Shown piece by piece: positions 2,831-31,445 of a stretch of 31,445 nt of DNA. The stretch is from a virus, in the IMG/VR virus record IMGVR_UViG_3300050821_000766, positions 1 through 31,445 of that record; one strand, given 5' to 3'. A program made the position numbers and the translations under genes. The first letter of the stretch is position 1. The number at the start of each line of letters is the position of its first letter. The notes beneath the pieces are model-generated. The model did not search any database. It worked only from the letters and a program-made list of their open reading frames with translations, and had not been told where the DNA came from.

Positions 2831-4138
2831 ATGGCAAACGAATACTTCACCAATGTTGACATCGGGAACAGGGCGCTCCAACACCTTGGCGCGACCCGCA
2901 TTACGTCGTTCTCGGACAACAGCAAGAACGCTTCTGCCATTTCCTTCGTCTATGACAAGCTTCGCCAGGCTGAACTACGTCGCAACGTGTGGCGGTTCTC
3001 TATCAGGGAGGTAGCGCTTCGGCCCGTAGACACTACCACTCTCCGCGTGACGTTCCTGCCCTGGAGCGCGACGATTGCTTACCAACCGGGGGCAATCGTC
3101 GCGGACCCTTCTCTTAACGGCGTTCTGTGGGTTTCCGCCAAGCCGTTCAACCTTAACCTCGCCCCTGGCACCGACCCGTCATGGGACATCTACTATGGTC
3201 CGCTGACGGCGGACGTGTTCACGCCCATTCCAAACTCTATCGGCAGTCCTGCCTATTACACGGGCGAGCTTGTCTACGAGACGCTGGGCGCTGGCAAAAT
3301 CCAGGTCTATTCGTCCCTGAGTGAACAGAACTCTACCGACCCGGTGAGTGGCACAGACACTTGGGCGGCCACGACTACCTATGCCAAGGGGCAGGTTACG
3401 CAGAACCCCGGAGACAGCTTCTTCTACATCTCCCTAATCGACAATAACCTGAACAACACTCCAGGCACTTACGGCGCGTGGGACAGCGGAACCACCTACG
3501 CGATTTCAACGATTGTCGGGGCATCGGACGGCAATCTTTACATCTCCATGACCAACAGCAATACCAATCATAACCCGATTGGCGACAACGGCACGAACTG
3601 GCAGCCGACCGGCAATCTCTGGCCGTGGACGACCAACTTTACTTCGGGTATCAGCGCCATTCCATGGACGCTCCAGTACTGCATGGTCGGGGCCATGAAT
3701 ATCGTCTATCCGCTTGGCTCCGGCCCGGCCAGTCAGACGTTCACCCGCAATATCTTCAAGCTCCCGAACGGGTTCCTGCGGCAGGCGTCGAACGACCCTA
3801 AGCAGGGAAGCGTATCCTTCCTCGGTGCGCCCGGTGGTGCCCCGTACAACGATTGGAACCTGGAGGGGGAGTTTCTGACTTCGCAAACCGCCTGGCCAAT
3901 CATTCTACGGTTTGGCGCGGACATGACACAGGTGTCGAAGTTCGATCCTATGTTCTGCGAGGGACTGGCGGCCCGCATTGCGATGGAAACCTGCGAAGAG
4001 CTTACCCAGGCGCAGGACAAACTCCGTGCTGCGGAGACGATGTATGCTGGCTTCATGGGCCAGGCGCGTACCGTCAACGGCATTGAGACCGGGCCGACAG
4101 AACCCCCCGAGGATGATTGGCTGACAACTCGCGTCTGA
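2831..4138 (+). CDS. Tail tubular protein A-like (gatekeeper) with carbohydrate-binding-like repeats
   Basis: The product is 435 aa from an ATG with AAGGA 6 bases upstream. The N-terminus (FTNVDIGNRALQHLGATRITSF, then a helix with LRQAELRRNVWRFSIRE) matches the T7 gp11-type tail tubular protein A family, which forms the ring between portal and nozzle. The C-terminal part (GLAARIAMETCEELTQAQDKLRAAETMYAGFMGQARTVNG) is the matching helical half. T7 gp11 is about 196 aa, so this protein is much longer. The extra middle, residues about 78-257, contains four units of the form W...Y..G..V....LY.S......N....P.....W, as in CBM5/12-type modules. An in-frame ATG at 2771 would add 20 residues (IFDPNIFDPAIFD motif) but has no SD. 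Confidence 0.8.
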   Translation: MANEYFTNVDIGNRALQHLGATRITSFSDNSKNASAISFVYDKLRQAELRRNVWRFSIREVALRPVDTTTLRVTFLPWSATIAYQPGAIVADPSLNGVLWVSAKPFNLNLAPGTDPSWDIYYGPLTADVFTPIPNSIGSPAYYTGELVYETLGAGKIQVYSSLSEQNSTDPVSGTDTWAATTTYAKGQVTQNPGDSFFYISLIDNNLNNTPGTYGAWDSGTTYAISTIVGASDGNLYISMTNSNTNHNPIGDNGTNWQPTGNLWPWTTNFTSGISAIPWTLQYCMVGAMNIVYPLGSGPASQTFTRNIFKLPNGFLRQASNDPKQGSVSFLGAPGGAPYNDWNLEGEFLTSQTAWPIILRFGADMTQVSKFDPMFCEGLAARIAMETCEELTQAQDKLRAAETMYAGFMGQARTVNGIETGPTEPPEDDWLTTRV

Positions 4139-4599
4139 TGGCACAGGGGAAGAAAGGAACCGGCCTATCCGGCACTTATCAGGGCAAACCATGTATCCAC
4201 GGCCACGGAACCGCGCGGTATCGTGCAGGAGGCGCTTGCGTTACTTGCTCAAGGCATCGTTCCCGTGACCAGTGGCGGTCCGCAGACCCCGCGTTTAGGG
4301 AAAAGAAACGCATATCCGCTCGAAAGATTTACCCAACTACGCTACGCAATCGTAACCTTCTTCGGGACTACGGAATTACGCTAGTGCAATACAATGAAAT
4401 GGCTGCGAACCAAGGCATGAACTGTGCGATGTGTGATTGTCAGCCGGGCTATCCACTGCGCGTGGATCATTGCCACGATACTGGAACGGTTCGTAACTTG
4501 CTTTGTATTACTTGTAACCTTGCTCTTGGCGCGTTGAAGGATAGCCCGCTATTGGCCGAGAAGGCTGCTGCGTATTTACGCAAGCACGGGAGAATATAA
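4138..4599 (+). CDS. Endonuclease VII-type HNH nuclease, probably free-standing homing endonuclease
   Basis: The product is 153 aa from ATG 4138, which overlaps the previous TGA; a TTG at 4117 would add 7 residues. Two parts are visible. An N-terminal zinc-knuckle-like segment has Cys/His pairs (CIHGHG...ACVTC). A C-terminal His-Me domain has CAMC, then VDHCHDTGTVRNLLCITCNLALGALKD. DHCH-x-TG-x-VR-x-LLC-x2-CN-x2-LG is the signature of the recombination endonuclease VII family (T4 gp49-like), with catalytic His in DHCH and four zinc Cys. Between two tail tubular genes, both intact, it is best read as a mobile HNH gene rather than a packaging resolvase. It would cut DNA and promote its own spread. 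Confidence 0.85.
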   Translation: MAQGKKGTGLSGTYQGKPCIHGHGTARYRAGGACVTCSRHRSRDQWRSADPAFREKKRISARKIYPTTLRNRNLLRDYGITLVQYNEMAANQGMNCAMCDCQPGYPLRVDHCHDTGTVRNLLCITCNLALGALKDSPLLAEKAAAYLRKHGRI

Positions 4600-7268
4600 T
4601 GGCCGTCGTATCACGCGCACAATCCACGTTCCTTGGTGGTGAGTGGAGCCCATACGCGCAGGGTCGCTTCGACCATGCCGGATACAAGACTGCGCTCAAC
4701 GTCTGCCTTAACTCCCACCCCATTACGGAGGGGGCGTGGACACGGCGACCGGGGTTTCAGTTCCTTGGCCTGACTAAGGGCGGAGCCAAGGCACGCACCA
4801 TTGCGTTCGATTTCTCGGAGATTGCTTCGTTCTTCATGGAATTGTCGACCAATAACCTACGGTTCTACGCGGGTACTAGCCGTGTGCACACGGCGGACGA
4901 ACAGGTGGTTTCGGCCATTAGCACGGCGACGCCTGCTGTTATTACGACGGCCACCAGCCCCATCGCCTGGCCAACGGGCAGTGTGGTGGAGTTTATCTTT
5001 CAGGGCTCCACGAATAGTGCCGTGGGTGCGCCGCTGCAAAATCGTCAGTTCACCGTTACCAACATTGATAACGTCCACTATTCCCTGTTCGATATGCAGA
5101 CTGGCGCACCCATCAACGGGGCTACGTTGAATTGGGTTGCGCCTTTTCCTGCACAGCTAGTAGTTGGCCGCGTGCTTGATTTGGCGACGCCATACAACGG
5201 TACTGATTGGCAGCAAGTTCGCAAGGTGCAGGCGGCTAACGTAACCAGCAACCCGCCCCTGGCCGATGCCATCCTGCTGCACAATCTTTATCCCCCGCAG
5301 ACAGTAGCTGAGAACGCACCGAACATCGTAACGCCACGCCTCCAGCAGTTTTCCATTGGCGCTTCGGCTTTCGTGAATGGCCCGTATCTTGACCCGGTGA
5401 ACAACTCTCCGACCGGCAACACTATTCAGCCCAGCAACAGCGCGGGGGCAACTCTTGTCGCCGCCACCACGGGGAACATAAACGGCGGTACAGGGTTCGT
5501 GGCTACGGATGTTGGCCGTATGCTGCGCATGTTCTCGGAGCCGGTTATCTGGAACATTGGTGTCACCTATCCGGCCGGACAATACGTCAAATATCTTGGC
5601 GCTTATTACCTGTCAGGCGTTGGCAGCAACCTTGGCAACATCCCCAACATTTCTCCCTCTGACTGGATACCCGTGGCTGCGTCTACGGCGACTGTTTGGG
5701 TGTGGGGGAAGATCACCGCTGTAACGAACACGACTACGGTTAGCTTTTCGATACAGCCGAACCCGGATGGCGTTCCGGCCACCTTGGCTTATTTTGCGCA
5801 GACGGCGGTCACTACGTGGGCGCTTGGTGCGTACAGCGCCACGACGGGCTATCCGTCCTGCGGCTGCTACTATCAAGGCCGCCTTGTCCTGTCGGGCGCT
5901 ATCGGCAACAGAATTGACGCTAGCGTCACCAATTCTATTTTTGACTTCTCTCCGACTGACACGTTTGGAAACGTGCTGGGCAGTAGCGCGATTGCCAGCA
6001 CGTACAACGCCGATAATACCAACACGGTCTATTGGATTGAAGATACGGCAGCGGGCTTGATCGCGGCCACGAAGACCGGCCAGTGGCTCATCAACGCGCC
6101 TACCCTTGGCCCGTGGACTTCGACCAACCAGGCAGCTTCCCGCGTGACGAAGGTGAAGGCTGGTAATCTCCTGCCCGCTCATACACCGCTTACTCTTGTG
6201 GCTGTGGATAAGTTCGGTCTCAGCATGTTTGAGTTTTACCCGGACGTGTTCAGTGGGCGCATCCAGGCTCCGAACCTGAATGCCTTTGCACAACACATTA
6301 CCGTGCCGGGCGTCCTGGAGATCGATTACCAGTCAGACATTCTCCCCGTCGTGTGGGGCCGTCGTTCGGATGGTGGTCTGATTGGCTGCACCTATTGTCG
6401 CGAGAGATTGTATAGCGCAGACCCGCCCACGTTCTCTGGCTTCCATCGCCATGCTCTCGGCAATGGTCACACTGTCGAAAGCGTGTCAGTAAGTCCTAAT
6501 GCGTTACTGACGCAAGATACGTTGCGCATGGTGGAGTTCGACAGTGTTCAGGGCTTTCGTCATGTCACGACTTCTCGCCCTCTGTTCAAAGCGACGGACG
6601 CCCTTACTTCTGCTTGGTTTGTGGATGATGGTGTGGTGCCGTCTGGAGCGCAACAGTCAACAGTGGGAGGCGTAAGTGGCATCACGTTCTTTGGACTTTG
6701 GCATCTTAACGGAGAGACAGCTTCAGCAGTTATCGGAGGGCTCGACTGCGGCGATTATCTTGTCGGTAACGGCTCCATCTTTGTCCCATTCGGTTCCGAC
6801 CCCGCAGGAAACTTCAAGCTGTCTTATCTGCAATCCCTCTCGCAAGTTGGGGGTTACGGGGACATGTCTGTTCTGCTGGACAGCCCAGCCTACACCTTTC
6901 CAGCCGTCGTCGGACTGACGTACACATCCCAAGGCCAGATGCTTCGGGCTCTCAAGCCGGAAGAGGCAGGCGCACGCACTGGCCCTGGCCTTGGCATGAC
7001 GCGCAGGACGCATATGTTCTCGTCCTTGTTCGGGAACATGATACCGGGCACGGTGTCGTTCGGGACGACGTTCTCTGATCTGCGCCCCTGCACGCCGACT
7101 TTCCCTGGCGGTTCGGCGCTACCCACTACATCTATGTACTCCGGGGTGTTTTGGGGTACATTGGATGATGACTATAGTTTCGACAGTCAATTGTGTTGGC
7201 AGATTACCCGTCCGCTGCCGCTGACCATCGCGGCGTTGGATAGCTTCGCTCACACGCAGGAACGCTAA
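4599..7268 (+). CDS. Tail tubular protein B-like (nozzle)
   Basis: The product is 889 aa; its ATG overlaps the TAA of the HNH gene (TAATG). The N-terminus (AQSTFLGGEWSPYAQGRFDHAGYKTALNVCLNSHPITEGAWTRRPGFQFLG) is the characteristic opening of the large podovirus tail nozzle or stabilisation proteins, equivalent to T7 gp12. The following beta-rich repeats and the mid-protein segment YPSCGCYYQGRLVLSGA...FDFSP fit that family. A single CBM5/12-like unit (WNIGVTYPAGQYVKYLGAYYLSG...DWIP) sits near residues 316-358, of the same kind as the repeats in the tail tubular A protein. The protein forms the distal tail tube through which DNA exits. Its length is within the family range. Confidence 0.85.
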   Translation: MAVVSRAQSTFLGGEWSPYAQGRFDHAGYKTALNVCLNSHPITEGAWTRRPGFQFLGLTKGGAKARTIAFDFSEIASFFMELSTNNLRFYAGTSRVHTADEQVVSAISTATPAVITTATSPIAWPTGSVVEFIFQGSTNSAVGAPLQNRQFTVTNIDNVHYSLFDMQTGAPINGATLNWVAPFPAQLVVGRVLDLATPYNGTDWQQVRKVQAANVTSNPPLADAILLHNLYPPQTVAENAPNIVTPRLQQFSIGASAFVNGPYLDPVNNSPTGNTIQPSNSAGATLVAATTGNINGGTGFVATDVGRMLRMFSEPVIWNIGVTYPAGQYVKYLGAYYLSGVGSNLGNIPNISPSDWIPVAASTATVWVWGKITAVTNTTTVSFSIQPNPDGVPATLAYFAQTAVTTWALGAYSATTGYPSCGCYYQGRLVLSGAIGNRIDASVTNSIFDFSPTDTFGNVLGSSAIASTYNADNTNTVYWIEDTAAGLIAATKTGQWLINAPTLGPWTSTNQAASRVTKVKAGNLLPAHTPLTLVAVDKFGLSMFEFYPDVFSGRIQAPNLNAFAQHITVPGVLEIDYQSDILPVVWGRRSDGGLIGCTYCRERLYSADPPTFSGFHRHALGNGHTVESVSVSPNALLTQDTLRMVEFDSVQGFRHVTTSRPLFKATDALTSAWFVDDGVVPSGAQQSTVGGVSGITFFGLWHLNGETASAVIGGLDCGDYLVGNGSIFVPFGSDPAGNFKLSYLQSLSQVGGYGDMSVLLDSPAYTFPAVVGLTYTSQGQMLRALKPEEAGARTGPGLGMTRRTHMFSSLFGNMIPGTVSFGTTFSDLRPCTPTFPGGSALPTTSMYSGVFWGTLDDDYSFDSQLCWQITRPLPLTIAALDSFAHTQER

Positions 7269-7933
7269 TGCCTAGTGTTGATCCTTTCTCAACCAGTAAC
7301 ATCATCAGTGGTGTTGGCGCGGGTATCGGCGCGGCTGGCTCGCTGTTCTCCGGCATGGGCGCGTCGGCGGGCGCGAGCGCGAGCGCGACCCAATTGTTTG
7401 GACAGTCACAAGCCGCATACTTTCAGGCCAATGGCTACCGGGAGGAAGCCGCTGGATTGAACATCGCTGCGGCGGGCTATGACGAAGCTTCCCATGCCGA
7501 AGCGCTGAACGCTGCTTATGCTAAAGCATCCGGCGACATTCAAGAGGCTCAGATGGGCCGCGAAATCTCCATGTCCCTTGGTCAAACCAAGGCGCAGGTG
7601 GGTGGCGCTGGTTTTGCCGAGAGTGGTAGCGCACTTGACATTCTGCGGGCTAGCAGCGAGCAAGGCGCGTTGGCCACATCTCTTATCGGCCAACAGACGG
7701 CCATTAATGTTAACAGCTACACGATGCAACAGAACGCCTACGAGAGCGAATACCTCAGCACAGAGAAGCAGGCAGATGCGGCCAACAGTGCGGCTGAGGG
7801 CGCTACGGCCATGGCGCAGGCTGACGCTGCGGCGGCTTCGCAGGTTCAGCAGGGCAGCACGATGGATACGATTGGCAGCATTATCGGTGGCGTGGCCAAG
7901 GTGGCTGGCGCTGTTGCTCCGTTCTTCGCGTAG
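7268..7933 (+). CDS. Internal virion protein, small (gp14-like)
   Basis: The product is 221 aa and starts in the TAATG overlap with the nozzle gene. It has a Gly/Ala-rich hydrophobic N-terminus (NIISGVGAGIGAAGSLFSGMGASAGASASA). A long Ala/Gln-rich helical body follows, with NSYTMQQNAYESEYLSTEKQADAAN in it. A second hydrophobic segment lies at the end (IGSIIGGVAKVAGAVAPFFA). This is the layout of the small internal core protein of T7-like podophages, which is ejected first and inserts into the outer membrane. Directly downstream are two much larger internal-protein candidates, as in T7 gp14-15-16. A short GCGAGC tandem repeat (about 7372-7389) encodes the SASASA stretch. Confidence 0.65.
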   Translation: MPSVDPFSTSNIISGVGAGIGAAGSLFSGMGASAGASASATQLFGQSQAAYFQANGYREEAAGLNIAAAGYDEASHAEALNAAYAKASGDIQEAQMGREISMSLGQTKAQVGGAGFAESGSALDILRASSEQGALATSLIGQQTAINVNSYTMQQNAYESEYLSTEKQADAANSAAEGATAMAQADAAAASQVQQGSTMDTIGSIIGGVAKVAGAVAPFFA

Positions 7934-7939
7934 GTTCGT

Positions 7940-9553
7940 ATGCCCAATATCACGCAGTTCACCAGCCCGATAGATAAACTCCAGCCGTCCGAGATTGGCC
8001 CGGAGGCGGTTGCGCGTGCGGCAGCGGTGCAGACACGTTCCGCCGTTCGCATGGGCGTACTTGGCGAACAGCTTGCACAGTCCAGGCGAGAGAGCGCACG
8101 GGCGCAGGCGGAAGGCATCCGCGCCATTGGCCACGGTCAAGAAGTTATCGGCCAAGGGCTAAATCAACTTCAGAAAACAGTCGAAGATTTCGAGGCTCAC
8201 CGCGAGATAGGGCTGTTTGGTTCTGCGTTGATGAAGACGCAGGAACAGCTTGACACCGATTGGAACCAGACGCGCGGCAAGGCGGACCCGAATATTCCGG
8301 TTGGCTCCGACTGGCGTGAAAAGAAGATGGTTCCCGCGCTCGACAAGCTTGTCGAAGATATGCGCAATCCCAAAGCGAGGGAGTTGGCACAGAACCAGGT
8401 AGATGCAGCCAAGCGCCACTACTTCGCCACGACGGAAGCCAACGACAAAGCTGCCGCTGGCGATGGTGCGCTGCGCAATCTTCAGACTGTCGTGGAAGGC
8501 GCAACCATTCGTTCGAGCAAAGACTTCTCGACGATGCAGTACAACAGCGACCTTATCAAAACGACGGGCGAGAATATTATCCAGACTGGCAACCTTGGCC
8601 CGAATGAAGCGCGTCTTGTCCGTGATCATATCGACAAATGGCAGCATGAGAACGTTGTCGCTGGTTGGAAGGGTGCTATCGACCGTAACCCTGGCGGTGC
8701 GCTGGCACAGCTACAGAAGGTTGGTGACAACTCTGGTATCTCTGCCAAGGATATTCAGACGTTGGAACACTACGGCAAGGAGGTACAGCGCGCTCACCGT
8801 TCTGATGCTCTTAACGCGCAGATGAGCGCGGATATTGCCACGCGCAAGCAGTCGGAAGCCCTACTCCAAAAGACGCTCAACGGCCTGACCAATCTTGACG
8901 ACCCGTCCATGTGGAACAAGCTGGGCCAAGGGGCGCTTACTCAGAAGGGGTTGACTTCGGAAGACCGCATTCGTCTGCTTAATCTTTCTCATTCGCGCGC
9001 CAAGGAACTTGAGGACACGGCAACGGGCAAGATTACTCGGCCGAACCCCATGGCGGAATTTGACCTTAACAAGCGCATCAACGATCCGACGAACCCTCTC
9101 ACCAAGAACGACATTGACGACGCGGTGCGCTCTCCCGACTTGAGCAAGCGTATTACGGCGGACCAAGGCATTAAGCTCTACCAGAAGCTGGACCAACTGA
9201 CCAAGGCTGACGCCAAGCCGGAAGACAAAGAGTGGCACGAAGCTAAGACGGCAACGGGCAATGAGCTTAAGGCCGCTGTAGCGGACATCATGCCTAGCGG
9301 TTCGGCAATTATGGCGAGCGCAGCTATTGCTCGGATGCAGCAGTATTTCGATGCGAAGCGACAGGAAGGCGTGCCAAAGGAAAAGCTTTTGGACCCGACT
9401 AGCCCTGACTGGTACATGAACGACCCTGGCTTGCGGAAGATCTTGAAGGACAAGAAAGCCTACGAGATGAAGACTATCCTGGAGAAGGGTGGGCCGTCCG
9501 CTCCCTCCAAACCAGTTGGACCGCTGCCTGATCCGTTTGCGGGCCTGAAGTAA
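7940..9553 (+). CDS. Internal virion protein, middle (gp15-like)
   Basis: The product is 537 aa, charged and almost entirely helical, with no signal peptide or membrane span. The first 110 residues are rich in Gln and Ala (LGEQLAQSRRESARAQAEGIRAIGHGQEVIGQGLNQLQKTVEDFEAHREIG). Long amphipathic helices with Lys/Asp/Gln run through to a Pro-rich C-terminus (GGPSAPSKPVGPLPDPFAGLK). No enzymatic motif is seen. Its size and its place between the 221-aa and 1143-aa genes match the middle internal core protein of short-tailed phages, which forms part of the trans-envelope channel during DNA ejection. The function is inferred from order and composition. Confidence 0.6.
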   Translation: MPNITQFTSPIDKLQPSEIGPEAVARAAAVQTRSAVRMGVLGEQLAQSRRESARAQAEGIRAIGHGQEVIGQGLNQLQKTVEDFEAHREIGLFGSALMKTQEQLDTDWNQTRGKADPNIPVGSDWREKKMVPALDKLVEDMRNPKARELAQNQVDAAKRHYFATTEANDKAAAGDGALRNLQTVVEGATIRSSKDFSTMQYNSDLIKTTGENIIQTGNLGPNEARLVRDHIDKWQHENVVAGWKGAIDRNPGGALAQLQKVGDNSGISAKDIQTLEHYGKEVQRAHRSDALNAQMSADIATRKQSEALLQKTLNGLTNLDDPSMWNKLGQGALTQKGLTSEDRIRLLNLSHSRAKELEDTATGKITRPNPMAEFDLNKRINDPTNPLTKNDIDDAVRSPDLSKRITADQGIKLYQKLDQLTKADAKPEDKEWHEAKTATGNELKAAVADIMPSGSAIMASAAIARMQQYFDAKRQEGVPKEKLLDPTSPDWYMNDPGLRKILKDKKAYEMKTILEKGGPSAPSKPVGPLPDPFAGLK

Positions 9554-12500
9554 TGGCCGACGATGACAAGACGGGTGGCCTGGACACAACGGACCAGTCT
9601 GCCACGACTGCGCCGACTGTTCCGCGTCTTGACGCGGAGGGCAAACCTGTTCCTAGTCTGCTAGATGTGGGCAAGCAGGTCTCGGGTGCACTTGTGCCTG
9701 GCGTGGGTCAGAGCCAGAGACTGGAAGATGCGGGCAAGTCCATCCTTGGCCTGTTCAATGACAAGACCGTCCCCGCTACTGACGAGGAAGCCGCCGCGCG
9801 TGTCGGAAACACCACACCACTGACTGGCCCGAACGCGGGGGAAGCTCGCAACTTCCTGACGAACACACGTATCAATGCGGGCTGGCCCAAGGATAAAGAG
9901 CTTCCGCCGTACATCACGGGCATGGCCAAGGCGAGGGCTCTTGGCCATACGTGGGACGACATTAACGAACATCTGGCAAACTGGCGCACTGAAGCGGAGA
10001 AACGTGGATACACGTCGGACCAGATTGCCACGACATTGTACGGCGCACCGATTGAGACAGACCACAAGCCTATCAGTTTTGATCACGTTCCTTCACCTGC
10101 GGAAGCTGGGGCAGATTTTCGTAATCTAGCGGATAGAATACAGAAGTGGGGCAACGACCCCATTCGCGATGTATTCGAGGGCATGAAGCTTCCTGTGCCA
10201 GGGCAGACCAATTCGGCGGGAGACATCCTCGCGCGCCAGGGTTGGGACGTTATCAACTTCGCCAAGTCGTTTGGCGCTGCACCACTGAACGGCTTGGCCG
10301 CCATAGCCGAGACATTCGATGGCAAGCCGCGTACCGCCTATGAATGGGAACAGCTTGGCTATGAGAGCGCGGGTTTCCTCATGCTGTTCGCAGCAGGGAA
10401 AGAAGGTAAGGCAGGAGACCTGAAGCCGCTTCCCAAGGTGGGAGACGTAGTGGATGCTGCCAGTGGCATAGAGGCGAAGCATGGCACTCCGTTGCCGGAA
10501 GCCCAGCGCGCCGTGGGCGAAGGCTTTGTCAATAAACCTGAAGGACCGTTTATCGACCCGGACAAGCTTCGCCAGATACAGGAAGAACGCTTCGACATCA
10601 TGGACGACCCCCGCCCTATCGAAGAACGGGTAAAGGAAGGAGAAGGCGCGAAGCATCCTGATCCGGTCAAGGCCATGGCAGCCGACATGGCAGCGGTCGA
10701 TAAGATTGTTGACACGTCAGACACTAGCCCCATCCCCAAGGTCCGCGAGATGACTTTTGAGGATTTGATGGGCGTTAAGAAAGGCGACGTACCGCCGGAG
10801 CCGCTTGTCAACATCACGCCGGAGACGTTATTCCGCAAAGACCCGGAGGTTGCCAGTGGTGTCTACAACGATCTCAAGCGATTGTTCACTCCAGGCTCAC
10901 TTGCTCCTGCGGAAGGTGAGGCTATCGCTGCGCAGGTTGCGCAGACGGCGGCAGAGAAAGAGCGCAGCGTTGGCCAAATCATCCGCTTTGGCCGCGCGAT
11001 AGGTGAATTGGCTTCTACGGCCAGGGTAAAGCTTATCGACGACATCGAGGTACGTAACCTTGATGAATACAAGGGAACGCCACTTGGACGCTTTGCAACT
11101 GAGATGCGCAAGCAGCTTGACTATTGGCATGGCGAAATAACGCGCCTTGGCGGCGAAGTGGGGTACGTCACCGATTACATCAAACATATGTATGCCAACC
11201 CGGAAGCGGCTGCGAAGTTCTTTTTGGAGGGGCGCAACCCTTTAGCAGGCAGCAAGGGGTTCACCAAGGAGCGCATCTTCGGCACCTACGCAGACGCGCG
11301 TGCGGCTGGCCTGAAGATGGCAACGGATAACCCGCTGCACCTGACCACCATCGCTATCCATCAAATGGCGCGGTATGTGACGGCGCTGCGCATCGTCAAG
11401 GACTTCCGAGAGAACAACTATCTGATTGACGTAGCGAACAAGACTGCCGCTCCCAAGGACTACACTCCCATCAGCGGTAAGCTGGGGGCCACAGACGGTG
11501 GTACGTTGTACGCTCCCAAGGATGTAGCAGGCTACATCAACAGCCTGACCGACCCTGGCCTAAGCAAGTACCCACTCTATCGTCTGTTGCGCAGCGCCAG
11601 CAATCTCCAGATACAGCTACAGCTTTCCATCAGCGGCTTTCACGGCATGTTCATTTTGAACGACGTGATGACTTCCGGCGTATCGCTCGGGGCGCAGCAA
11701 ATTAGCCGTGGCCTAATGAACAAGCCGACTGCTGCCACCCTGGCTGAAATCCCGCGCGGCTTCCTAACTGCTCTCAGCGCCATGACGGGCGTTACCGCTG
11801 TCAAAAGCTATGTGGCAGGTCGACAGGTGCTTAGTCATCTCCTGGAGGGCAAAGGCACGGGCGACGTGCCGATCATCACTGACGCCTATAAGGAGGGCGG
11901 TGGTCGCCTTGGCATGACCGAGGACTACCAAGGCACGGCCATGGGCAGTCTCATCAAAGCCTTTCAGGGTACCTTCTTCCCGTCTTCCGGTTACGCCACC
12001 CTTGGCCAAGAGATTGGCGACATGTTCCGCAATTCTCAGAACATGCGCGCATTCGGCAAGGAACTCCCTGCGTCCAACATTGCGAAGGCAGCGTTTCAGT
12101 TAATGGGCCGCTTTATCGAGACAGCAGCTTTCCCTATCATGGGCCATCTGGTGCCGACGATGAAAGCCGGTGTGTTCTCCATGGCCATGCGTGACTTCCT
12201 TCGTGTTGCACCAGAAGCCGGGCCGTTAGAGACACGCGCTTATGCCAACCTGCTGAACAAGTCCATGGACAACCGCATGGGCGAAATGGTGTACGATAAT
12301 CGGTTCTGGAACAAGACGGCCAAGGACTTGGCCCATATCAGCGTGCGTGCCCTTGGCTGGAACGCAGGCGACATTGCGGAACTACCGGGCGGCCTTCTGG
12401 ACATGGCTACGCTCAAGAACGCCAAGATTGGCGACATGAACCAGGTCACGCCACGCGCCTCCTATGTTGTGGGCTTCGTGACAACTACGGCCCTGACCGG

Positions 12501-12984
12501 AGCAGCCATTGGCTATATGACGGGCAACCCGCCTGAAGACCTTCTCGACTACATCTTTCCCAAGACGCCTTGGGGCCGTATTTCAATCCCCGGCTATGCC
12601 AAGGATGTCTACAACATGTACAACGACCCTGGCCGCACCGTAGCGGGCAAGGTCAACCCAATGTTTCCAATGCTGCACTCCATGTTCACCAATCGGGATT
12701 GGTACGGTGGCGTCATTGCGGACCCCAAGAATGAAGATGTGCTCACCAATATCAAGGACTACGCCAAGTGGTTCGGTGAGCAGTATATGCCAATCACGCT
12801 CAAACAACAGCTTCAGGCAACTCCCGAACAGGAAGACATTCCCCCTGCTATGCGTTGGCTTGGCGTAAATCCGGCTCCCTACCCCGCGCGTGAGCCGGAG
12901 AAGACAGAGAAGTATCAAAACAAGGACTATAAGGCCGCCGTGAAGAAGCGGGAGAAAATGCGTACCAAACAAAGCACTGAGTGA
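9553..12984 (+). CDS. Large internal virion protein (ejected)
   Basis: This 1143-aa protein is the largest in the window, and its ATG overlaps the previous TAA. The N-terminal 170 residues are polar and Pro-rich. A long helical region follows (PAEGEAIAAQVAQTAAEKERSVGQIIRFGRAIGELA...GYVTDYIKHMYANPEAAAKFF). A central part (LRSASNLQIQLQLSISGFHGMFILNDVMTSG) resembles the helical core of very large phage ejection proteins. A hydrophobic segment (SYVVGFVTTTALTGAAIGYMTG) lies near residue 980. I see no clear lytic transglycosylase Glu motif at the N-terminus such as T7 gp16 has. The C-terminus is very basic (KDYKAAVKKREKMRTKQSTE). The role is inferred from size and gene order. Confidence 0.65.
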   Translation: MADDDKTGGLDTTDQSATTAPTVPRLDAEGKPVPSLLDVGKQVSGALVPGVGQSQRLEDAGKSILGLFNDKTVPATDEEAAARVGNTTPLTGPNAGEARNFLTNTRINAGWPKDKELPPYITGMAKARALGHTWDDINEHLANWRTEAEKRGYTSDQIATTLYGAPIETDHKPISFDHVPSPAEAGADFRNLADRIQKWGNDPIRDVFEGMKLPVPGQTNSAGDILARQGWDVINFAKSFGAAPLNGLAAIAETFDGKPRTAYEWEQLGYESAGFLMLFAAGKEGKAGDLKPLPKVGDVVDAASGIEAKHGTPLPEAQRAVGEGFVNKPEGPFIDPDKLRQIQEERFDIMDDPRPIEERVKEGEGAKHPDPVKAMAADMAAVDKIVDTSDTSPIPKVREMTFEDLMGVKKGDVPPEPLVNITPETLFRKDPEVASGVYNDLKRLFTPGSLAPAEGEAIAAQVAQTAAEKERSVGQIIRFGRAIGELASTARVKLIDDIEVRNLDEYKGTPLGRFATEMRKQLDYWHGEITRLGGEVGYVTDYIKHMYANPEAAAKFFLEGRNPLAGSKGFTKERIFGTYADARAAGLKMATDNPLHLTTIAIHQMARYVTALRIVKDFRENNYLIDVANKTAAPKDYTPISGKLGATDGGTLYAPKDVAGYINSLTDPGLSKYPLYRLLRSASNLQIQLQLSISGFHGMFILNDVMTSGVSLGAQQISRGLMNKPTAATLAEIPRGFLTALSAMTGVTAVKSYVAGRQVLSHLLEGKGTGDVPIITDAYKEGGGRLGMTEDYQGTAMGSLIKAFQGTFFPSSGYATLGQEIGDMFRNSQNMRAFGKELPASNIAKAAFQLMGRFIETAAFPIMGHLVPTMKAGVFSMAMRDFLRVAPEAGPLETRAYANLLNKSMDNRMGEMVYDNRFWNKTAKDLAHISVRALGWNAGDIAELPGGLLDMATLKNAKIGDMNQVTPRASYVVGFVTTTALTGAAIGYMTGNPPEDLLDYIFPKTPWGRISIPGYAKDVYNMYNDPGRTVAGKVNPMFPMLHSMFTNRDWYGGVIADPKNEDVLTNIKDYAKWFGEQYMPITLKQQLQATPEQEDIPPAMRWLGVNPAPYPAREPEKTEKYQNKDYKAAVKKREKMRTKQSTE

Positions 12985-13034: not shown

Positions 13035-13415
13035 ATGCGCAAACTCGGTATCGCTCTCCTGATGGTCTTCGGTCTGCTTGGGGCTCCTGTAGCCGTGGCG
13101 CAGATCAGCCAGCCTGGCCCCAACTCGGCGCAGCGTCTTGGCGCTACGTGGACCGTGGCGACTGTTGCCCTCAACGGCTCCAGCCAAACCCTACTGGCCG
13201 CTAGCGTCGGGGTCTGCAAAAGCATGATTGTCTACAATCCCAGCGCCAACGCTTCCATCTGGATTGACCTTTCAGGCGGTGTAGTTGCTTCCGAGACCGG
13301 CATTAAGGTAGCCGCTGGCACTTGGTACGCGGCGACGGGCTCCATGGGGCCATGCAGCACCGTGACGGTTATCGGCACGAACACCCAGAGCGTTTATGTG
13401 TGGAGTGCGTCGTGA
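13035..13415 (+). CDS. Small exported protein of the virion region (signal peptide)
   Basis: The product is 126 aa. The start at 13035 is chosen over an upstream GTG at 12981 because AAAGGA lies 7 bases upstream and the first residues then form a clean Sec signal peptide. This runs MRKLGIALLMVFGLLGAPVAVA with a cleavage site before QISQPG. The mature part is beta-rich (SSQTLLAASVGVCKSMIVYNPSANASIWIDLSGGVV). It is similar in pattern to small phage surface proteins that describe themselves only as structural. Two Cys (VGVCKSM and GPCSTV) could form a disulfide after export. It is the first of three consecutive genes with signal peptides. Confidence 0.65.
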   Translation: MRKLGIALLMVFGLLGAPVAVAQISQPGPNSAQRLGATWTVATVALNGSSQTLLAASVGVCKSMIVYNPSANASIWIDLSGGVVASETGIKVAAGTWYAATGSMGPCSTVTVIGTNTQSVYVWSAS

Positions 13416-13882
13416 AGAAACTTCTTGCTTTCCTACTCGTTCTCATCCCCGGCATTGCCTTGGCTCAGATTGGCGGTAGTATTTCCAGTGGCGGTACGGG
13501 TGGTTTGTCTGTTGCGCCACTTACTAACTCCATGGGTGGCAACCAGGCCCTCAATACTTCTACGTTCGCGGATGGCCCTTCAGTAGCACAAGGAACGGTT
13601 GGAACGTGGTGTGCCATGGGCACCGTGACCATGACGGATACAGCTTCCGTTAATCCGGTTCAATTGAAACTGTGGGATGGAACCACCGTCATTGCCTCCG
13701 GTGTGGTTGCTATTCCCGCTGCGAATGATCAGACGATGGTAGCCATGTCCGGCTGCATCACGAACCCAGCGGGTAATATACGCATCTCCGGTAAGTCCAG
13801 CACGACATCCACGTCTTCGTTCCTGTTCAATAATTCTGGACTTAGCAAAGACAGCACTATTACCGTTTTCAGGATACAGTAA
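13412..13882 (+). CDS. Exported protein of the virion region (signal peptide)
   Basis: The product is 156 aa from a GTG that overlaps the previous TGA (GTGA), with GGAG 6 bases upstream. The first in-frame start at 13322 would destroy the signal peptide, so it is not used. The leader is MKKLLAFLLVLIPGIALA, cut before QIGG. The mature chain is Gly/Ser/Thr-rich and beta-prone. It contains a TVTMTDTASVNPVQLKLWDGTTVIASG segment and two Cys (TWCAMG, MSGCIT), typical of a small jelly-roll or Ig-like phage structural domain. Function unknown; either a surface-displayed or a virion-associated protein. Confidence 0.6.
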   Translation: MKKLLAFLLVLIPGIALAQIGGSISSGGTGGLSVAPLTNSMGGNQALNTSTFADGPSVAQGTVGTWCAMGTVTMTDTASVNPVQLKLWDGTTVIASGVVAIPAANDQTMVAMSGCITNPAGNIRISGKSSTTSTSSFLFNNSGLSKDSTITVFRIQ

Positions 13883-14742
13883 TGAAACGGCTTTTCCTTG
13901 CCTGCCTTGTTATGCTGGCGGGATCAGTAGCCCATGCCCAAACGGTGCGAGAGCTTTACCCACTCACGGCCAATATGGACTATTACTTCAACTGTTCGAC
14001 GGGTAGCAACTTAAACTCTGGTGCGGCGTCATTTCCTTTTGCTGACCCGCTCTTCGCCTACAATTTCCTTCAACAGCACGTAGACTTGGCCGGATACACC
14101 GTCACGCTCCACGGCCAAGTTGGCTGCGGTGGCGTGGCTTGGACGTTCTCTGGCCCCCTTGTTGGCGCGAAGGGCGCTACCAGCTTCGTCATTGTCGGCA
14201 CTGGCCAGTCCATGCAGATTGGAGCACCCGCCAACGGATATGCCTTTCAGGTTCAGAACGACGCAGGGATTACCGTCCAGAACTTCTCTTGCACGGGTGG
14301 GACGGGCAGCGGCGGGTGCCTCCTGGCCAACGGGGGGACCATCATTGCGGGCGGTGTTGCCGCCAGCATGTGGTTCATCAATGACGCCAGCAACAGCTTG
14401 GCAGACGCAGCCGGACCGCGCTCTATCATCCAGATCATCGGGACGATTGGACTTACTTCTCAGGCTGGCAGTGCAAACACCGTCATAGTGTCGGAAGACC
14501 ATGCCCTGATTACCCTACCTAGCGCATGGGGTATTGGTACGGTCAACTGGACCCTTGGCTTTGCTGTGGCTGATCTTGGCGGTATGATTGACGGGACCGG
14601 CTTCAGCTTCTCAGGCGGCGGCACTGGCACACGTTATGTAGCCTCGTCCAACGCTATCATCTTCACGGGCGGCTCTGGTGGCGCTACCTTCTATCCTGGC
14701 AATGCGGGGGGCACTACAGCTACAGGCGGTTTCTACCAATGA
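13882..14742 (+). CDS. Exported beta-helix-like protein, possible tailspike or surface protein
   Basis: The product is 286 aa; its ATG overlaps the previous TAA (TAATG). It opens with a Sec signal peptide (MKRLFLACLVMLAGSVAHA, then QTVRE). The segment YYFNCSTGSNLNSGAASFPFADPLFAYNFLQQHVDLAGYTVTLHGQVG has the pattern seen at the start of parallel beta-helix domains in phage fibres and tailspikes. Gly/Ser-rich coils follow (QVQNDAGITVQNFSCTGGTGSGGCLLANGGTII). No pectate-lyase catalytic residues are evident. A beta-helix with a signal peptide is unusual for a virion fibre, which is normally cytoplasmic. It may modify the host surface or block receptors. Confidence 0.6.
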   Translation: MKRLFLACLVMLAGSVAHAQTVRELYPLTANMDYYFNCSTGSNLNSGAASFPFADPLFAYNFLQQHVDLAGYTVTLHGQVGCGGVAWTFSGPLVGAKGATSFVIVGTGQSMQIGAPANGYAFQVQNDAGITVQNFSCTGGTGSGGCLLANGGTIIAGGVAASMWFINDASNSLADAAGPRSIIQIIGTIGLTSQAGSANTVIVSEDHALITLPSAWGIGTVNWTLGFAVADLGGMIDGTGFSFSGGGTGTRYVASSNAIIFTGGSGGATFYPGNAGGTTATGGFYQ

Positions 14743-14996
14743 CCGAGCCAAAGATATCCAGTATAGTTACCATTCGAGAACTTGTCCTGTTGGGGGCAGT
14801 TGTCGTCGGCGGTGCCGTAGCGTGGGGGATGCTTGCATCCGATGTGAAAGCTCTTGCGGCCAGGATAGACCGGACCGATGCTCAGAACATACGGTTGGTG
14901 GACAAAGTCAGTGAAACGCGAGATATTGTTATCGAAGTGAGGGCATTGCTACAGCGACAGTTACCAACCGTACCCGGAGGACCCCATGGACCCTAA
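14739..14996 (+). CDS. Membrane protein with coiled coil, possible spanin or holin-like protein
   Basis: The product is 85 aa and starts in an ATGA overlap with the previous stop. One transmembrane helix (about 16-33, LVLLGAVVVGGAVAWGML) is followed by a heptad-rich helix (DVKALAARIDRTDAQNIRLVDKVSETRDIVIEVRALLQRQL) and a Pro/Gly tail. A single N-terminal membrane anchor plus a periplasmic coiled coil is the plan of inner-membrane spanins. It is also the plan of some class III holin-like proteins. It precedes a candidate muralytic gene and a holin-like gene, which supports a lysis role. No specific family is certain. Confidence 0.5.
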   Translation: MTEPKISSIVTIRELVLLGAVVVGGAVAWGMLASDVKALAARIDRTDAQNIRLVDKVSETRDIVIEVRALLQRQLPTVPGGPHGP

Positions 14997-15450
14997 GCAA
15001 CAGCGCGGCTATCTGAATAATAACCCCGGTAATCTGGACCGCTCCGAGCCCCCCTGGAACGGTGAGATAAGGGATGCGGACGACGCTAGGCTCACGCCGT
15101 TCCAGCATCATGAACTCGTGTACGGTCGCTTCTGCGTGTTTGCGGACAGCTTCCACGGTATCCGCGCCCTGGCCAAGAACCTGCTGGCGTACTTTGACAA
15201 GGATGGTCTCAAGAGCGTAACCCAGCTTATCGAACGCTGGGCACCTAACCAGGAGAACAACACTACAGCCTACATCAACAACGTATGCGCCATGATAAGG
15301 GTAACACCCAATGACAAGATCGACCTTCATAACCAGACGGTTCTCCAGGCCATGGCGTCTGCGATTGTTAGGGTTGAGTGTGGTGGTATGCCTTATACTG
15401 ATGCGGAAATGGCTGCTGGCGTAGCAGCCGCTTTGGAGTATCAAGCATGA
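14986..15450 (+). CDS. Possible endolysin or virion-associated muralytic protein
   Basis: The product is 154 aa and overlaps the previous gene by 11 bases. The pattern RGYLNNNPGNLD...PPWNGE...FADSFHGIRALAKNLLAYFDKDG...VTQLIERWAPNQENNTTAYINNV is a widespread phage family annotated either as a structural protein or as a lysozyme-like protein (NNNPGN + W.G + GIRA + RWAP..EN.T..YI). I cannot identify a catalytic Glu with certainty. It is soluble and has no export signal. The position next to a holin-like gene supports a lysis role, but a virion-associated role is equally compatible. Confidence 0.6.
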   Translation: MDPKQQRGYLNNNPGNLDRSEPPWNGEIRDADDARLTPFQHHELVYGRFCVFADSFHGIRALAKNLLAYFDKDGLKSVTQLIERWAPNQENNTTAYINNVCAMIRVTPNDKIDLHNQTVLQAMASAIVRVECGGMPYTDAEMAAGVAAALEYQA

Positions 15451-15644
15451 ACTTTCAGTACATCATCAGCTATGTGCTGGCCCGCCTCAGCGAAGCCAGT
15501 ACCTGGATTAATATCCTCCAGTTCCTCACCGCCGCTGGCATCTATCATTTCAGCGATAGCCAGGCGGGCACGATTGCCTCCCTTGGCGTGGCTATGACTG
15601 CCGCTGTCGGCATGGCCATGAAGGATAAGGGTGCCGACAAGTGA
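15447..15644 (+). CDS. Holin-like small membrane protein
   Basis: The product is 65 aa, starting in an ATGA overlap. One hydrophobic stretch covers about 21-33 (WINILQFLTAAGIYHF). A second covers about 41-57 (GTIASLGVAMTAAVGMAM), and a short charged tail follows (KDKGADK). The pattern RLSEASTWINILQFL...ASLGVAM is seen in small two-helix phage holins. Holins make the inner-membrane lesion that lets the muralytic enzyme reach the cell wall and so set lysis timing. The gene lies directly after the candidate muralytic gene and before the papain-like protease. Confidence 0.65.
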   Translation: MNFQYIISYVLARLSEASTWINILQFLTAAGIYHFSDSQAGTIASLGVAMTAAVGMAMKDKGADK

Positions 15645-16417
15645 GCCGTTACGGGTGCCTTCCCGATATCAAGGACCACAACGACCGGCCATTTACGATG
15701 ACGGCGTCACAGACGCAGACTTATGCGCTCCTATTGCCGCCTGTAATGGACCTGCGCCCTTGGTGTCCGCCTGTCATGAACCAGGTAAGCCTTGGCTCTT
15801 GCACCGCTCACGGGGTCACGGCTGCCTTGCGCTTCAATCTGATCAACAACGGCCAGCCGGACATTCCTCTGTCGCGCCTCCAACTGTATTATGATAGCCG
15901 CGCTTCTGAAGGCACGACGGCTTCTGACGCGGGTGCGCAGATCAGGAATGTCATTAAGACTGCGGCAGCCAAGGGCGTCGGCAAGGAAGAACTCTGGTCC
16001 TATGACTTGACGAAGTGGGCCGTTCCGCCTCCGCCTGAAGTTTACACGGACGCAGTGAACCACGAAGCAATCGAATATAGCCGCGTGGAAGTGTCAGCCC
16101 ATGGCCTGAAGTTGGCCCTGTTCACTGGCCGTCCTGTCGTTATCGGCATTACGGTCCACGCCAGCTTCGAGAGTGACCAAGTTGCGACAACTGGCGTCGT
16201 GCCGATGCCGGGGCCTGGCGAGAATGTTATAGCCGGGCACTGTATGCTGGTAGCTGGCTACGGCCAGATGCCGGGATACTTCACCGTGCTGAACTCGTGG
16301 GGCGAAGGCTGGGGCGACAAAGGCTATTGCTACATCCCCGAAGCGTATCTCGGTTCCGCCAAGTACGGTAGCGATTACTGGTCCATCTATTCCACCACAG
16401 GAGCCAACCCGCCATGA
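15641..16417 (+). CDS. Papain-like (C1A-type) cysteine protease
   Basis: The product is 258 aa from a GTG in a GTGA overlap with the holin-like gene. The catalytic layout of papain is complete. Gln48 and Cys54 lie in NQVSLGSCTAHG (Q-x5-C, as in papain Q19/C25), His200 lies in GHCMLVAGYG, and Asn218 lies in NSWGEGWGDKGY. No signal peptide or propeptide is visible, so the enzyme would start in the cytoplasm. Cys proteases of this clan are rare in phages. Its location in the lysis cassette, next to a holin and a lipoprotein, suggests that it acts on host or envelope proteins late in infection. Head maturation is less likely, because head proteases normally lie near the capsid genes. Confidence 0.8.
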   Translation: MSRYGCLPDIKDHNDRPFTMTASQTQTYALLLPPVMDLRPWCPPVMNQVSLGSCTAHGVTAALRFNLINNGQPDIPLSRLQLYYDSRASEGTTASDAGAQIRNVIKTAAAKGVGKEELWSYDLTKWAVPPPPEVYTDAVNHEAIEYSRVEVSAHGLKLALFTGRPVVIGITVHASFESDQVATTGVVPMPGPGENVIAGHCMLVAGYGQMPGYFTVLNSWGEGWGDKGYCYIPEAYLGSAKYGSDYWSIYSTTGANPP

Positions 16418-16920
16418 TTACCCGTCGTCTTCTCGTCTCTGCGGCCCCGGCTGTCGCGCTCGCCCCGTTGCTTGCGGCTTGCGCTGGCAAGACCGTTGAT
16501 CAGTCCATCGCCACCGTCGTAACGGACGTGTCAACTATTGCGAACGGCCTTCAGGGCACGTTGACCCAGCTTGGGGCTCTCGGCGTTGCTGGCCTTACCC
16601 CGGCCATCGTGTCCACCGTGGGCAACTATGTTGCCGATTTGCAACAGGTAGCTACTCAGGTCAGCGGCGCTACCACTACCGCCGCCGCACAGCCGCTTGT
16701 CCAGAAGGTGGAAACCTACGTCAACACCATCGTATCCACCTTGGCCTTGATCCCCCTGCCGCCCCCGATTTCGACCGCTCTCCAGGCGGCGGCTATCCTA
16801 CTGCCTGTCATCGAAGTTGCAGTCGGTCTGCTGGTTCCGCCGACGAATGGGGCATCCCCCGGCATGACGCCGGACCAAGCCCGGCTTGTCCTTCTAGGCG
16901 CGGCGGCGGCCAAGAAATAG
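16414..16920 (+). CDS. Lipoprotein, possible outer-membrane partner in lysis
   Basis: The product is 168 aa and starts in an ATGA overlap, with an AGGAG about 10 bases upstream. A Tat/Sec-like N-terminus with RR (MITRRLLVSAAPAVALAP) leads to a lipobox LLAAC, so Cys would be lipidated. The rest is Ala/Val/Thr-rich with a Pro-rich hydrophobic stretch (LALIPLPPPISTALQAAAILLPVIEVAVGLLVPP). It then has MTPDQARLVLLGAAAAKK at the end. It is the last gene of the plus-strand block and follows lysis genes. It could be an outer-membrane spanin-type protein, but it is longer and more hydrophobic than typical ones. It could equally be a surface protein. Confidence 0.6.
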   Translation: MITRRLLVSAAPAVALAPLLAACAGKTVDQSIATVVTDVSTIANGLQGTLTQLGALGVAGLTPAIVSTVGNYVADLQQVATQVSGATTTAAAQPLVQKVETYVNTIVSTLALIPLPPPISTALQAAAILLPVIEVAVGLLVPPTNGASPGMTPDQARLVLLGAAAAKK

Positions 16921-16993: not shown

Positions 16994-17464
16994 CTAGCCC
17001 CCCGTATCAGGCGGCACGAAGCAAAGCACCCGCACTGAATACGTATAGTCCGTCCTACCACGGCTAGTGGACCAATCTTCTCGCAGGCACAAGTGCCCTT
17101 CCTCGGTGGAAGGATTACGTTCGTGCAAAACTAACTCGTCCGGTATCTTGATCCATGGGTCCGCACCCTTGGCGACCATGTATGCTGGCACCCGCGCCCA
17201 CCAGTCTCCATTGCGCACCTCGGCTTGGGTAGGCTCGCAGTCACCGGAGATGTGTATCTTGCCCTGTAGCGTGTCCATGTACTCATTGGCGTTGCAGCAG
17301 GAGTAGCCGTTCCCCGGCTGTTTCCACCCTTGGTAATACATATGATAGCGTTCGTGGGCTGTCGTATCCGGGTTTTGCGCCTGTGCATTAGCGAACAGCA
17401 ACATGATAAGAGCTACCGCCACAAACGCAGCGACAATAACAACGCCTGGCCTAAGCATCTCCAC
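16994..17464 (-). CDS. Exported Cys-rich protein of unknown function
   Basis: The product is 156 aa. The N-terminus MEMLRPGVVIVAAFVAVALIMLLFANAQA is a signal peptide or membrane anchor, with an AQA cleavage site before QNPDTT. The mature part has Cys residues (SCCNANE, DCEP, HLCLRE, VLCFVPP) and aromatic patches (HMYYQGWKQP, NGDWWARVPAYMV), which fits a disulfide-bonded periplasmic or surface protein. It overlaps the upstream gene by 14 bases and is the last gene of the minus-strand block. I recall similar short proteins in bacterial chromosomes, mostly of rhizobial type, but cannot name a function. Confidence 0.6.
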   Translation of the reverse strand: MEMLRPGVVIVAAFVAVALIMLLFANAQAQNPDTTAHERYHMYYQGWKQPGNGYSCCNANEYMDTLQGKIHISGDCEPTQAEVRNGDWWARVPAYMVAKGADPWIKIPDELVLHERNPSTEEGHLCLREDWSTSRGRTDYTYSVRVLCFVPPDTGG

Positions 17465-28616: not shown

Positions 28617-30477
28617 GGCCAGCCTCCGGTAGCCACCACCACGTTACGCCATCTTCCTCGGTACAATACGGGCGCAGCTTGGTCTTCGCAAGCTTCTCCA
28701 GCGCCTTCACGCCTTTTTCGTCGCCAAGCGGGCCGCCAAGAGCCGTAAACAGCGTGGCCGAAATCAATGCACTGTCCCGGCTCCTGCACCCGCGTTCGAC
28801 TAGAATTTTGGCGACTTTGGACGAAGCGAACGCATCCGCTTGCTCCACAACCTGACGGTATTCGTCGGTGGTTGATGGTTCAAAGACGAGGCTGCCCGCG
28901 AAGTTACGTCCTTTAAACAACCAGCGCGCTCCGTCTGCGGCGTTTTTGTGCTTGCGGACGATGACTTCCGCGCTGAGTTGGGTTTTGTCGGGCCGGATGG
29001 TTTCGATGACGCTATCAAAATCTGCAAGCCACGCGCTAGACCCTCTAGCGCCTCTCTCACTGTCCTTGCCTGAATGGTGTACGGCAACAACCGAGCAACC
29101 AAACCGTTCGCGTAGAGTGTCACAGAACCGTCCAAAAAGACGGACGCTCGTACTATCGTTTTCACTCAATCCTCCCAATACTTTACCGGCCGTGTCGATG
29201 GCCAGGAGCGCGAGCTTTCTATCGCCAAGCCAACTGGAAATCTCCTGGCACCATTCGTCGACCTCGCCGTGTACCTCTTGAACATAAGGCACCATGCTCG
29301 CGCGGAAGTTCTCAAGTTTATCTGAAGATAGACCCTTAGCTGTCTGCCATGCACGTCTTCGTGTCTTACCAACGTTACGCAAATCCTCCAAAGCGCCATA
29401 AAGAACGCATCCCTTGCTCGGTGTATGACCAAACGTTTGCGTGCCGGATGCAACGCCAAGAAACACATCAAGCAGGAGGAAGGACTTGAAAGCCTGGGAT
29501 GGTCCAATCCACAGGACAGTGCTATCTGCCGGTATGAGATTTTGGACAATCCACGTAGGCTCGGGCTCATTGTCAAAATCCTCCGCGCTCATCAAGCGAT
29601 AACGTGATTTGGCTTTCTCCGTCTTGGCCAGGGCTTCGCGGAACGCCTCATTGGTTCCGAACACTTCGGCCGCACTACGATTATCTACGTTGGCAGGCTC
29701 GTTCTGGGCATACTGCCAAGCGTTATTGCCAATCGTCTCTAATTCTTCCTCGCTCCATGGCGGCCGACAGCCAGCGTTCCAGCCGTCGTCGGCTAGCAGG
29801 AGCCCGAGGGACTTCTCTCGGCTGACACCCAAATCTCTAAGTTGCGCAAAAACTTGATAAGTGAAAGCATTTCCTCCGGCTCCAGAGATTGCAACTGCCC
29901 CTCTGCGTAACAGACTGCGTAGGTAACTCTCTCCGCGAGCCAATCCGGTGGGGGTATCGAGTTCTCCAACGCTAAGTTTGCGTTGGCCATCTGATTGCGC
30001 AATACGATCCGCAATCCATCGCGGTAGCTCAACAATGTCTCTGTCATGCAGCACCTGATAAGGTTTACCGCCAACAACACTCGGAGGAACTAAAACGTAT
30101 CCGCCTTTGCCGCGCGTGTCTACATGAGAAGCAAGCTTGCCAACAGTAGAAGGTACGCTGCCGACGAAATACAAATGACGACCGTCACGCGGCGTTTGGA
30201 CTTCGTATGTAGGTCCATGACCCCCACTATCGTTAGCCAGAGTATTCCAGTGACCATCCCCACCGGGGTCAATATCAACCACAGCCCAACCAACAGTGTC
30301 GGGGCGAACACCAATGTTGAAGTCGTCACGGTTCCACCACTCATCAATTACTTCCAAGTCCGTCGTAGCTTCGTACATACCGTTGGCCACGGCAGGATGC
30401 TTGGCGTCCGGTGCGCAGGGGAAAACGGGTATTCCCGCCTCGGCCAGAGCACGGGCCTGCATATGCAAAGGCGTCAT
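28606..30477 (-). CDS. Primase-polymerase/RecA-fold helicase fusion
   Basis: The product is 623 aa, starting in an ATGA overlap. The N-terminal part is a bifunctional primase-polymerase (Prim-Pol): VVDID (D68, D70) and TPRDGRHLYF (H101), with DTRGKGGYVLVPPS (120-133) as the last catalytic block. A PriCT-like helical domain lies around residues 190-260. The C-terminal half is a RepA-like RecA-fold ATPase with Walker A GPSQAFKS (325-332), Walker B LLAID (424-428) and VAVHHSGK (464-471). The enzyme would lay primers and unwind DNA for the family A polymerase downstream. I see no zinc finger like that of the T7 gp4 primase. Confidence 0.85.
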   Translation of the reverse strand: MTPLHMQARALAEAGIPVFPCAPDAKHPAVANGMYEATTDLEVIDEWWNRDDFNIGVRPDTVGWAVVDIDPGGDGHWNTLANDSGGHGPTYEVQTPRDGRHLYFVGSVPSTVGKLASHVDTRGKGGYVLVPPSVVGGKPYQVLHDRDIVELPRWIADRIAQSDGQRKLSVGELDTPTGLARGESYLRSLLRRGAVAISGAGGNAFTYQVFAQLRDLGVSREKSLGLLLADDGWNAGCRPPWSEEELETIGNNAWQYAQNEPANVDNRSAAEVFGTNEAFREALAKTEKAKSRYRLMSAEDFDNEPEPTWIVQNLIPADSTVLWIGPSQAFKSFLLLDVFLGVASGTQTFGHTPSKGCVLYGALEDLRNVGKTRRRAWQTAKGLSSDKLENFRASMVPYVQEVHGEVDEWCQEISSWLGDRKLALLAIDTAGKVLGGLSENDSTSVRLFGRFCDTLRERFGCSVVAVHHSGKDSERGARGSSAWLADFDSVIETIRPDKTQLSAEVIVRKHKNAADGARWLFKGRNFAGSLVFEPSTTDEYRQVVEQADAFASSKVAKILVERGCRSRDSALISATLFTALGGPLGDEKGVKALEKLAKTKLRPYCTEEDGVTWWWLPEAGRED

Positions 30478-31283: not shown

Positions 31284-31303
31284 GGTGCCCTCGGAAGCAA
31301 ATT

Positions 31304-31331
31304 GGGGGCGAGGAAGATATCCCCCGCCCCC
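31304..31331 (-). promoter_or_regulatory. G/C hairpin upstream of the glycosyltransferase
   Basis: GGGGGCG (31304-31310) and CGCCCCC (31325-31331) pair perfectly around 14 bases. The hairpin lies between the repeat-protein stop and the glycosyltransferase SD. No T-run follows on the minus strand, so attenuation or mRNA stabilisation is as likely as termination. Confidence 0.35.
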
Positions 31332-31339
31332 TGAGAATG

Positions 31340-31445
31340 TCAAAGGCGAGCTAAAGCGGTGATGATCTTCGCGTTAGCGTCCCTGGCAGCGGCCCAGGCA
31401 GCGGTCCCGGCAGCGTCCCTGGCAAAGGCCCAGGCAGCGTCCCTG
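31340..31445 (-). CDS. Tetrapeptide-repeat protein, C-terminal end (truncated by window edge)
   Basis: The minus-strand frame is open to base 31445 and ends with TGA at 31340-31342. The 34 visible residues are RDAAWAFARDAAGTAAWAAA, then RDANAKIITALARL. They fall into 4-residue units (RDAA, WAFA, RDAA, GTAA, WAAA, RDAN), that is, a 12-bp DNA period (visible as CAGGGACGCTGCC). Similar A/W/R/D arrays (AAWAAARDAA) are found in several phage proteins of unknown function. The rest of the gene lies outside the window. Confidence 0.65.
   Translation of the reverse strand, partial: RDAAWAFARDAAGTAAWAAARDANAKIITALARL

Follow-up and report, generated by a model that had tools for sequence, protein, structure and literature searches.

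Assembly of tailed phages is, in the textbook account, entirely cytoplasmic, and for P22 it is established that tailspikes attach late and spontaneously. The tailspikes known to us carry no signal peptide, and the open-access literature searched yielded no description of a tail fibre with a signal peptide or of an exported fibre with disulfide bonds. The closest described proteins are BcepC6B gp19 and orf35 of Xanthomonas phage PBR31, annotated as tail fiber or structural protein and encoded between the tail proteins and the holin. A signal peptide on gp19 or orf35 is mentioned neither in the records nor in the passages found in the PBR31 paper, where the signal-peptide mentions concern another gene. 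T5 Llp, encoded beside the receptor-binding protein, is exported and disulfide-bonded and blocks FhuA from the periplasm (PMC9586334).

The window analysed here is the whole 31.4-kb fragment of an uncultivated podovirus (virus record), and its first bases fall inside a major capsid gene (PHROG 3437). The features considered are the following.

2771 (start): tail tubular A, downstream of the capsid gene
4599: tail tubular B (PHROG 376, E=8e-67)
7268, 7940 and 9553 (span 7268-12984): three internal virion proteins, assigned by position
9553-12984, plus strand: large internal virion protein, upstream border of the fibre slot, by position relative to BcepC6B and HTVC035P
13035-13415, plus strand: SP1, predicted signal peptide and 104-aa beta-rich module with 2 Cys
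13035-13100, plus strand: SP1 signal peptide, 22 aa, AVA/Q (Sec scan)
13412-13882, plus strand: SP2, GTG start, predicted signal peptide and C1q/TNF-like head
13412-13465, plus strand: SP2 signal peptide, 18 aa, ALA/Q (Sec scan)
13882-14742, plus strand: SP3, predicted signal peptide and beta-helix-like fibre module with 4 Cys, its last residues being YPGNAGGTTATGGFYQ
13882-13938, plus strand: SP3 signal peptide, 19 aa, AHA/Q (Sec scan)
14739-14996, plus strand: holin-like single-TM protein, downstream border (PHROG holin, E=0.022, and hydrophobic segment)
14986-15450, plus strand: endolysin-type lysozyme domain (PHROG 873, E=8e-46)

SP1, SP2 and SP3 occupy the slot for tail fibres in a podovirus resembling BcepC6B, with an internal virion protein on one side and lysis genes on the other, and tail fibres sit in the equivalent slot of BcepC6B and HTVC035P. 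The nearest likeness of tail tubular B is to Pelagibacter HTVC035P, a Manatee Spring podovirus and Burkholderia BcepC6B; used as sole query against IMG/VR, it gave no match, and family comparison of the 9553-12984 product gave none either. Other genes of the window were also observed: 4117-4599 (plus strand), between tail tubular A and B, has an HNH/endonuclease VII-type look by its Cys/His pattern; 15641-16417 (plus strand), in the lysis block, encodes a papain-family (C1) cysteine protease (Pfam Peptidase_C1, E=2.5e-14) related most closely, among phages, to proteins of a 595-kb uncultured phage and of Burkholderia phage FLC9; and 30474-31343 (minus strand) weakly matches PHROG 14945, a phage glycosyltransferase family (E=0.0012).

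The three genes are consecutive and translationally coupled, with overlapping stop and start codons (SP1 and SP3 start with ATG, and the holin-like gene at 14739 overlaps the SP3 stop), and each is preceded by a Shine-Dalgarno-like sequence. Signal peptides were called with a rule-based Sec scan, which predicted Sec/SPI cleavage at MRKLGIALLMVFGLLGAPVAVA/Q for SP1, MKKLLAFLLVLIPGIALA/Q for SP2 and MKRLFLACLVMLAGSVAHA/Q for SP3, each with a positive n-region, a hydrophobic core and an AxA cleavage motif. No lipobox (SPII) was found in the three proteins, the cut being before Gln and the +1 residue not Cys. Among 84 related-phage loci the rule was passed by 22/1074 ORFs versus 7/1074 after N-terminal shuffling, and with such a low background rate three consecutive signal peptides are not expected by chance. 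The mature part of SP2 contains 2 Cys, at positions 49 and 97. These results bear out the preliminary description, which had placed three genes with signal peptides cut before Gln, and with Cys in each mature part, in the virion region: tail tubular A/B and the internal virion proteins lie upstream and lysis genes start from 14739.

Only two other ORFs of the window gave strong signal calls. The 16414-16920 product (plus strand), whose N-terminus is MITRRLLVSAAPAVALAPLLAAC, has a lipobox-like LAAC and RR close to the start and is a predicted lipoprotein, possibly with a role in lysis or exclusion. The product of the opposite-strand ORF 16994-17464 (minus strand) is a further candidate exported phage protein; it contains 5 Cys, and its predicted signal peptide (ANAQA/Q) is strong.

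Single-sequence searches with SP1, SP2 and SP3 against IMG/VR and INPHARED gave no matches. The SP2 family was recovered through its conserved KLWDGTT motif, searched as a DNA pattern, which led to about 95 ORFs having the SP2 mature part as C-terminal module, the best being 45-55% identical. The AlphaFold model of SP2, built with 38 homologs (pLDDT 92.7), is predicted to adopt a C1q/TNF-like jelly-roll; its best solved match is the N-terminal domain of the BC2L-C lectin (Foldseek E=3.5e-5), and among viral proteins it matches phage fibre, C1q and collagen-type proteins. A scan of bacterial genome assemblies for the SP2 module revealed 2 loci only, the full-length one (L324) being devoid of signal; since the module is very rare there and common in viral contigs, its carriers would be mostly virulent phages. 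In L324, an Isosphaeraceae MAG, this no-signal form lies directly ahead of lysis-type genes. Near another exported SP2-module gene, L335:6894-8075 (minus strand) encodes a further fibre-like protein with an export signal (...ATWPAAA/Q) and an N-terminal stretch, GNPANTNSWGGVLNTDFDLLD, like the N-termini of no-signal fibres.

SP1 has a clear homolog without signal at L352:2210-2614 (minus strand; E=1e-16), adjoining an SP2-module gene and having non-Cys residues at both positions of the SP1 Cys. This homolog came from a later scan; the SP1 family profile search had yielded one other member only, weakly convincing. Longer fibre-like proteins, most of which have an N-terminal part of their own and no signal peptide, end in a module (...FPGxxAGTTxTGGQY) to which the SP3 mature part corresponds; signal-bearing members are few. 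The beta-helix-like fold attributed earlier to SP3 appears reasonable, in view of a moderate model (pLDDT 75.7), weak fold matches and the homology to fibre ends. L142 has two neighbouring genes for fibre-like proteins without signal, one of the SP3 module and one of the SP2 module, just upstream of an endolysin-like gene, whereas in the window each of these modules bears a signal. The mature parts of SP1, SP2 and SP3 are each homologous to a module which other phages make without signal peptide, and they are receptor-binding type C-terminal modules homologous to fibre proteins.

The comparison of cysteines covered a non-redundant set of 75 SP2-module proteins whose N-terminus could be classified, 31 signal-bearing and 44 not. 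A Cys pair equivalent to mature residues 67 and 109 was found in 28/31 proteins with signal versus 3/44 without (Fisher 5e-14, a value inflated by the relatedness of the proteins), and Cys at the first position was always accompanied by Cys at the second. Other exported SP2 modules have other pairs, 49/97 in the window and 50/134 in L167. With strand limits from the SP2 model and the TNF strand order, the pairs 67/109, 49/97 and 50/134 would each join two neighbouring strands, namely D-G, C-F and C-H, respectively. Furthermore, the total of mature Cys was even in all 31 exported SP2-module proteins (2 to 18 Cys; cleavage sites of several were hand-set to a conserved A/Q-like site) versus 20 of 40 no-signal ones, and in 32/32 exported proteins with the automatic cleavage rule. 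A second pattern scan, for which the prediction had been fixed beforehand, gave five new exported members, two of them near-identical, all even and with two Cys in the module. A sixth rule match, L374 (1 Cys), was judged after the fact to be a false positive due to an internal start.

A tree-based independent-pair test offered 3 supported contrasts only and was underpowered (median p=0.25), none being opposite to expectation. Odd numbers of mature Cys occur in some exported relatives (3 in the L350 and L157 head-binding proteins, 9 in L196, 5 in MW202898), and one no-signal family (L124, L127, L186) likewise has two Cys. Outside the SP2 family, the unrelated C-terminal module of the signal-bearing BcepC6B gp19 contains a Cys pair (GMCQF, TVCQA) at whose positions the no-signal fibres of KpV74, Peat1 and BF25/12 have non-Cys residues; the PBR31 homolog is devoid of this pair, and a different one nearer the N-terminus is common to both. 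The Cys-pair and parity signals constitute strong, although indirect, support for real export and oxidative folding of the signal-bearing fibre modules, and hence for the export proposed initially for SP1, SP2 and SP3.

In four loci, a signal peptide precedes a P22/Sf6-type tailspike head-binding domain.

L350:1541-2557: exported head-binding protein
L104:4715-5809: exported head-binding protein
L157:3689-4753: exported head-binding protein
L196:1-822: exported head-binding protein

Their no-signal relatives begin at the expected signal cleavage point. Single-sequence searches matched the head-binding domains of solved tailspike structures, 7eeq and 9vyg (E about 1e-5 to 8e-7), as did a profile search (8e-20), and L350 matches a PHROG tail family over its mature length (E=5e-58). 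In L350, L104 and L157 the gene directly follows an internal virion protein and lies upstream of an exported SP2-module fibre; the corresponding protein at the equivalent locus of L200 has no signal and 0 Cys. As a decoy would have no need of a virion-binding domain, exported tail fibres joining virions at or after lysis are favoured over pure surface decoys.

The best explanation, which in our judgement has an even chance of being correct, is that the three proteins are exported receptor-recognition modules, folded with disulfides and most likely fibre components that join the tail at lysis. SP1, SP2 and SP3 would be tail-fibre type modules exported by Sec late in infection, their signal peptides would be removed, disulfide bonds would form as they fold in the periplasm, and the exported fibre would attach to the tail once lysis mixes virions with the periplasm. 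The general form of this scheme, a two-compartment assembly where Sec-exported, disulfide-bonded fibres attach to cytoplasm-built particles only at lysis, is advanced as a tentative proposal. Against the best explanation, both BcepC6B and PBR31 have, next to the exported protein, a distinct tailspike that lacks a signal; the exported protein is thus not their sole receptor-binding protein. That same tailspike is compatible with modules that never enter the virion and act as late decoys, periplasmic or released, occupying receptors or envelope glycans and preventing superinfection or the trapping of progeny on debris. We consider this rather unlikely, but it is kept in play by T5 Llp, a precedent which serves superinfection exclusion (PMC9586334), and SP1, SP2 and SP3 have no recognisable adaptor, a search of the three for an N-terminal virion-attachment domain having recognised none. 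On the other hand, their genes are located among late structural and lysis genes and lack the Llp/Cor-type lipobox, and homologous exported proteins have kept the virion head-binding domain. The suggested display on the infected cell to block receptors is possible, whereas this domain fits fibres that join the virion better.

The preliminary description had also evoked a change of surface sugars, for which no support was found. It appears improbable that the proteins are enzymes or lectins secreted to act on exopolysaccharide during lysis, unconnected with receptor blocking or assembly: SP3 has weak fold matches to a lyase-like beta-helix and SP2 resembles the lectins BC2L-C and PLTL, but no glycan-degrading family was matched and SP1 and SP2 appear non-enzymatic. 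It is more doubtful still, to the point of being very improbable, that the hydrophobic N-termini are assembly or membrane-association sequences of proteins remaining in the cytoplasm. In favour of this, signal cleavage is a prediction from sequence; against it, the AxA/Q sites are conserved, the Cys numbers are even and the Cys pairs are almost confined to signal-bearing copies.

If exported fibres that join the virion are the correct reading, recurrent exported and oxidised fibres would break the rule of cytoplasmic assembly; otherwise, soluble receptor-binding decoys would be widespread. Disulfide-stabilised fibres and a dependence on the host Sec and Dsb systems are predicted in either case, and a signal peptide with an even number of Cys is a sequence signature to find more exported fibre proteins. 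The occurrence of signal and paired Cys in many unrelated phages too suggests that some phages route receptor-binding proteins through the envelope rather than assemble them in the cytoplasm.

Among known systems, the P22/Sf6-type head-binding domain (PDB 7eeq, 9vyg), present in the exported relatives L350, L104, L157 and L196, is missing from SP1, SP2 and SP3 of the window. SP2 shares the fold of the C1q/TNF-like lectin heads (BC2L-C N-terminal domain, 2wq4; PLTL, 9ib7) with a TM-score of about 0.65 and a sequence identity of about 10%, and sugar binding by SP2 is conjectural. Like SP1, SP2 and SP3, for which disulfides are predicted, the T5 Llp and Cor superinfection-exclusion proteins are exported, disulfide-bonded and encoded beside receptor-binding genes, but they are lipoproteins without fibre modules, and Llp is expressed early. 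BcepC6B gp19 and PBR31 orf35 differ by other sequence modules and by the separate tailspike that precedes them, and they have in common with SP1, SP2 and SP3 the slot, a Sec signal peptide, fibre-type modules and a mature Cys pair.
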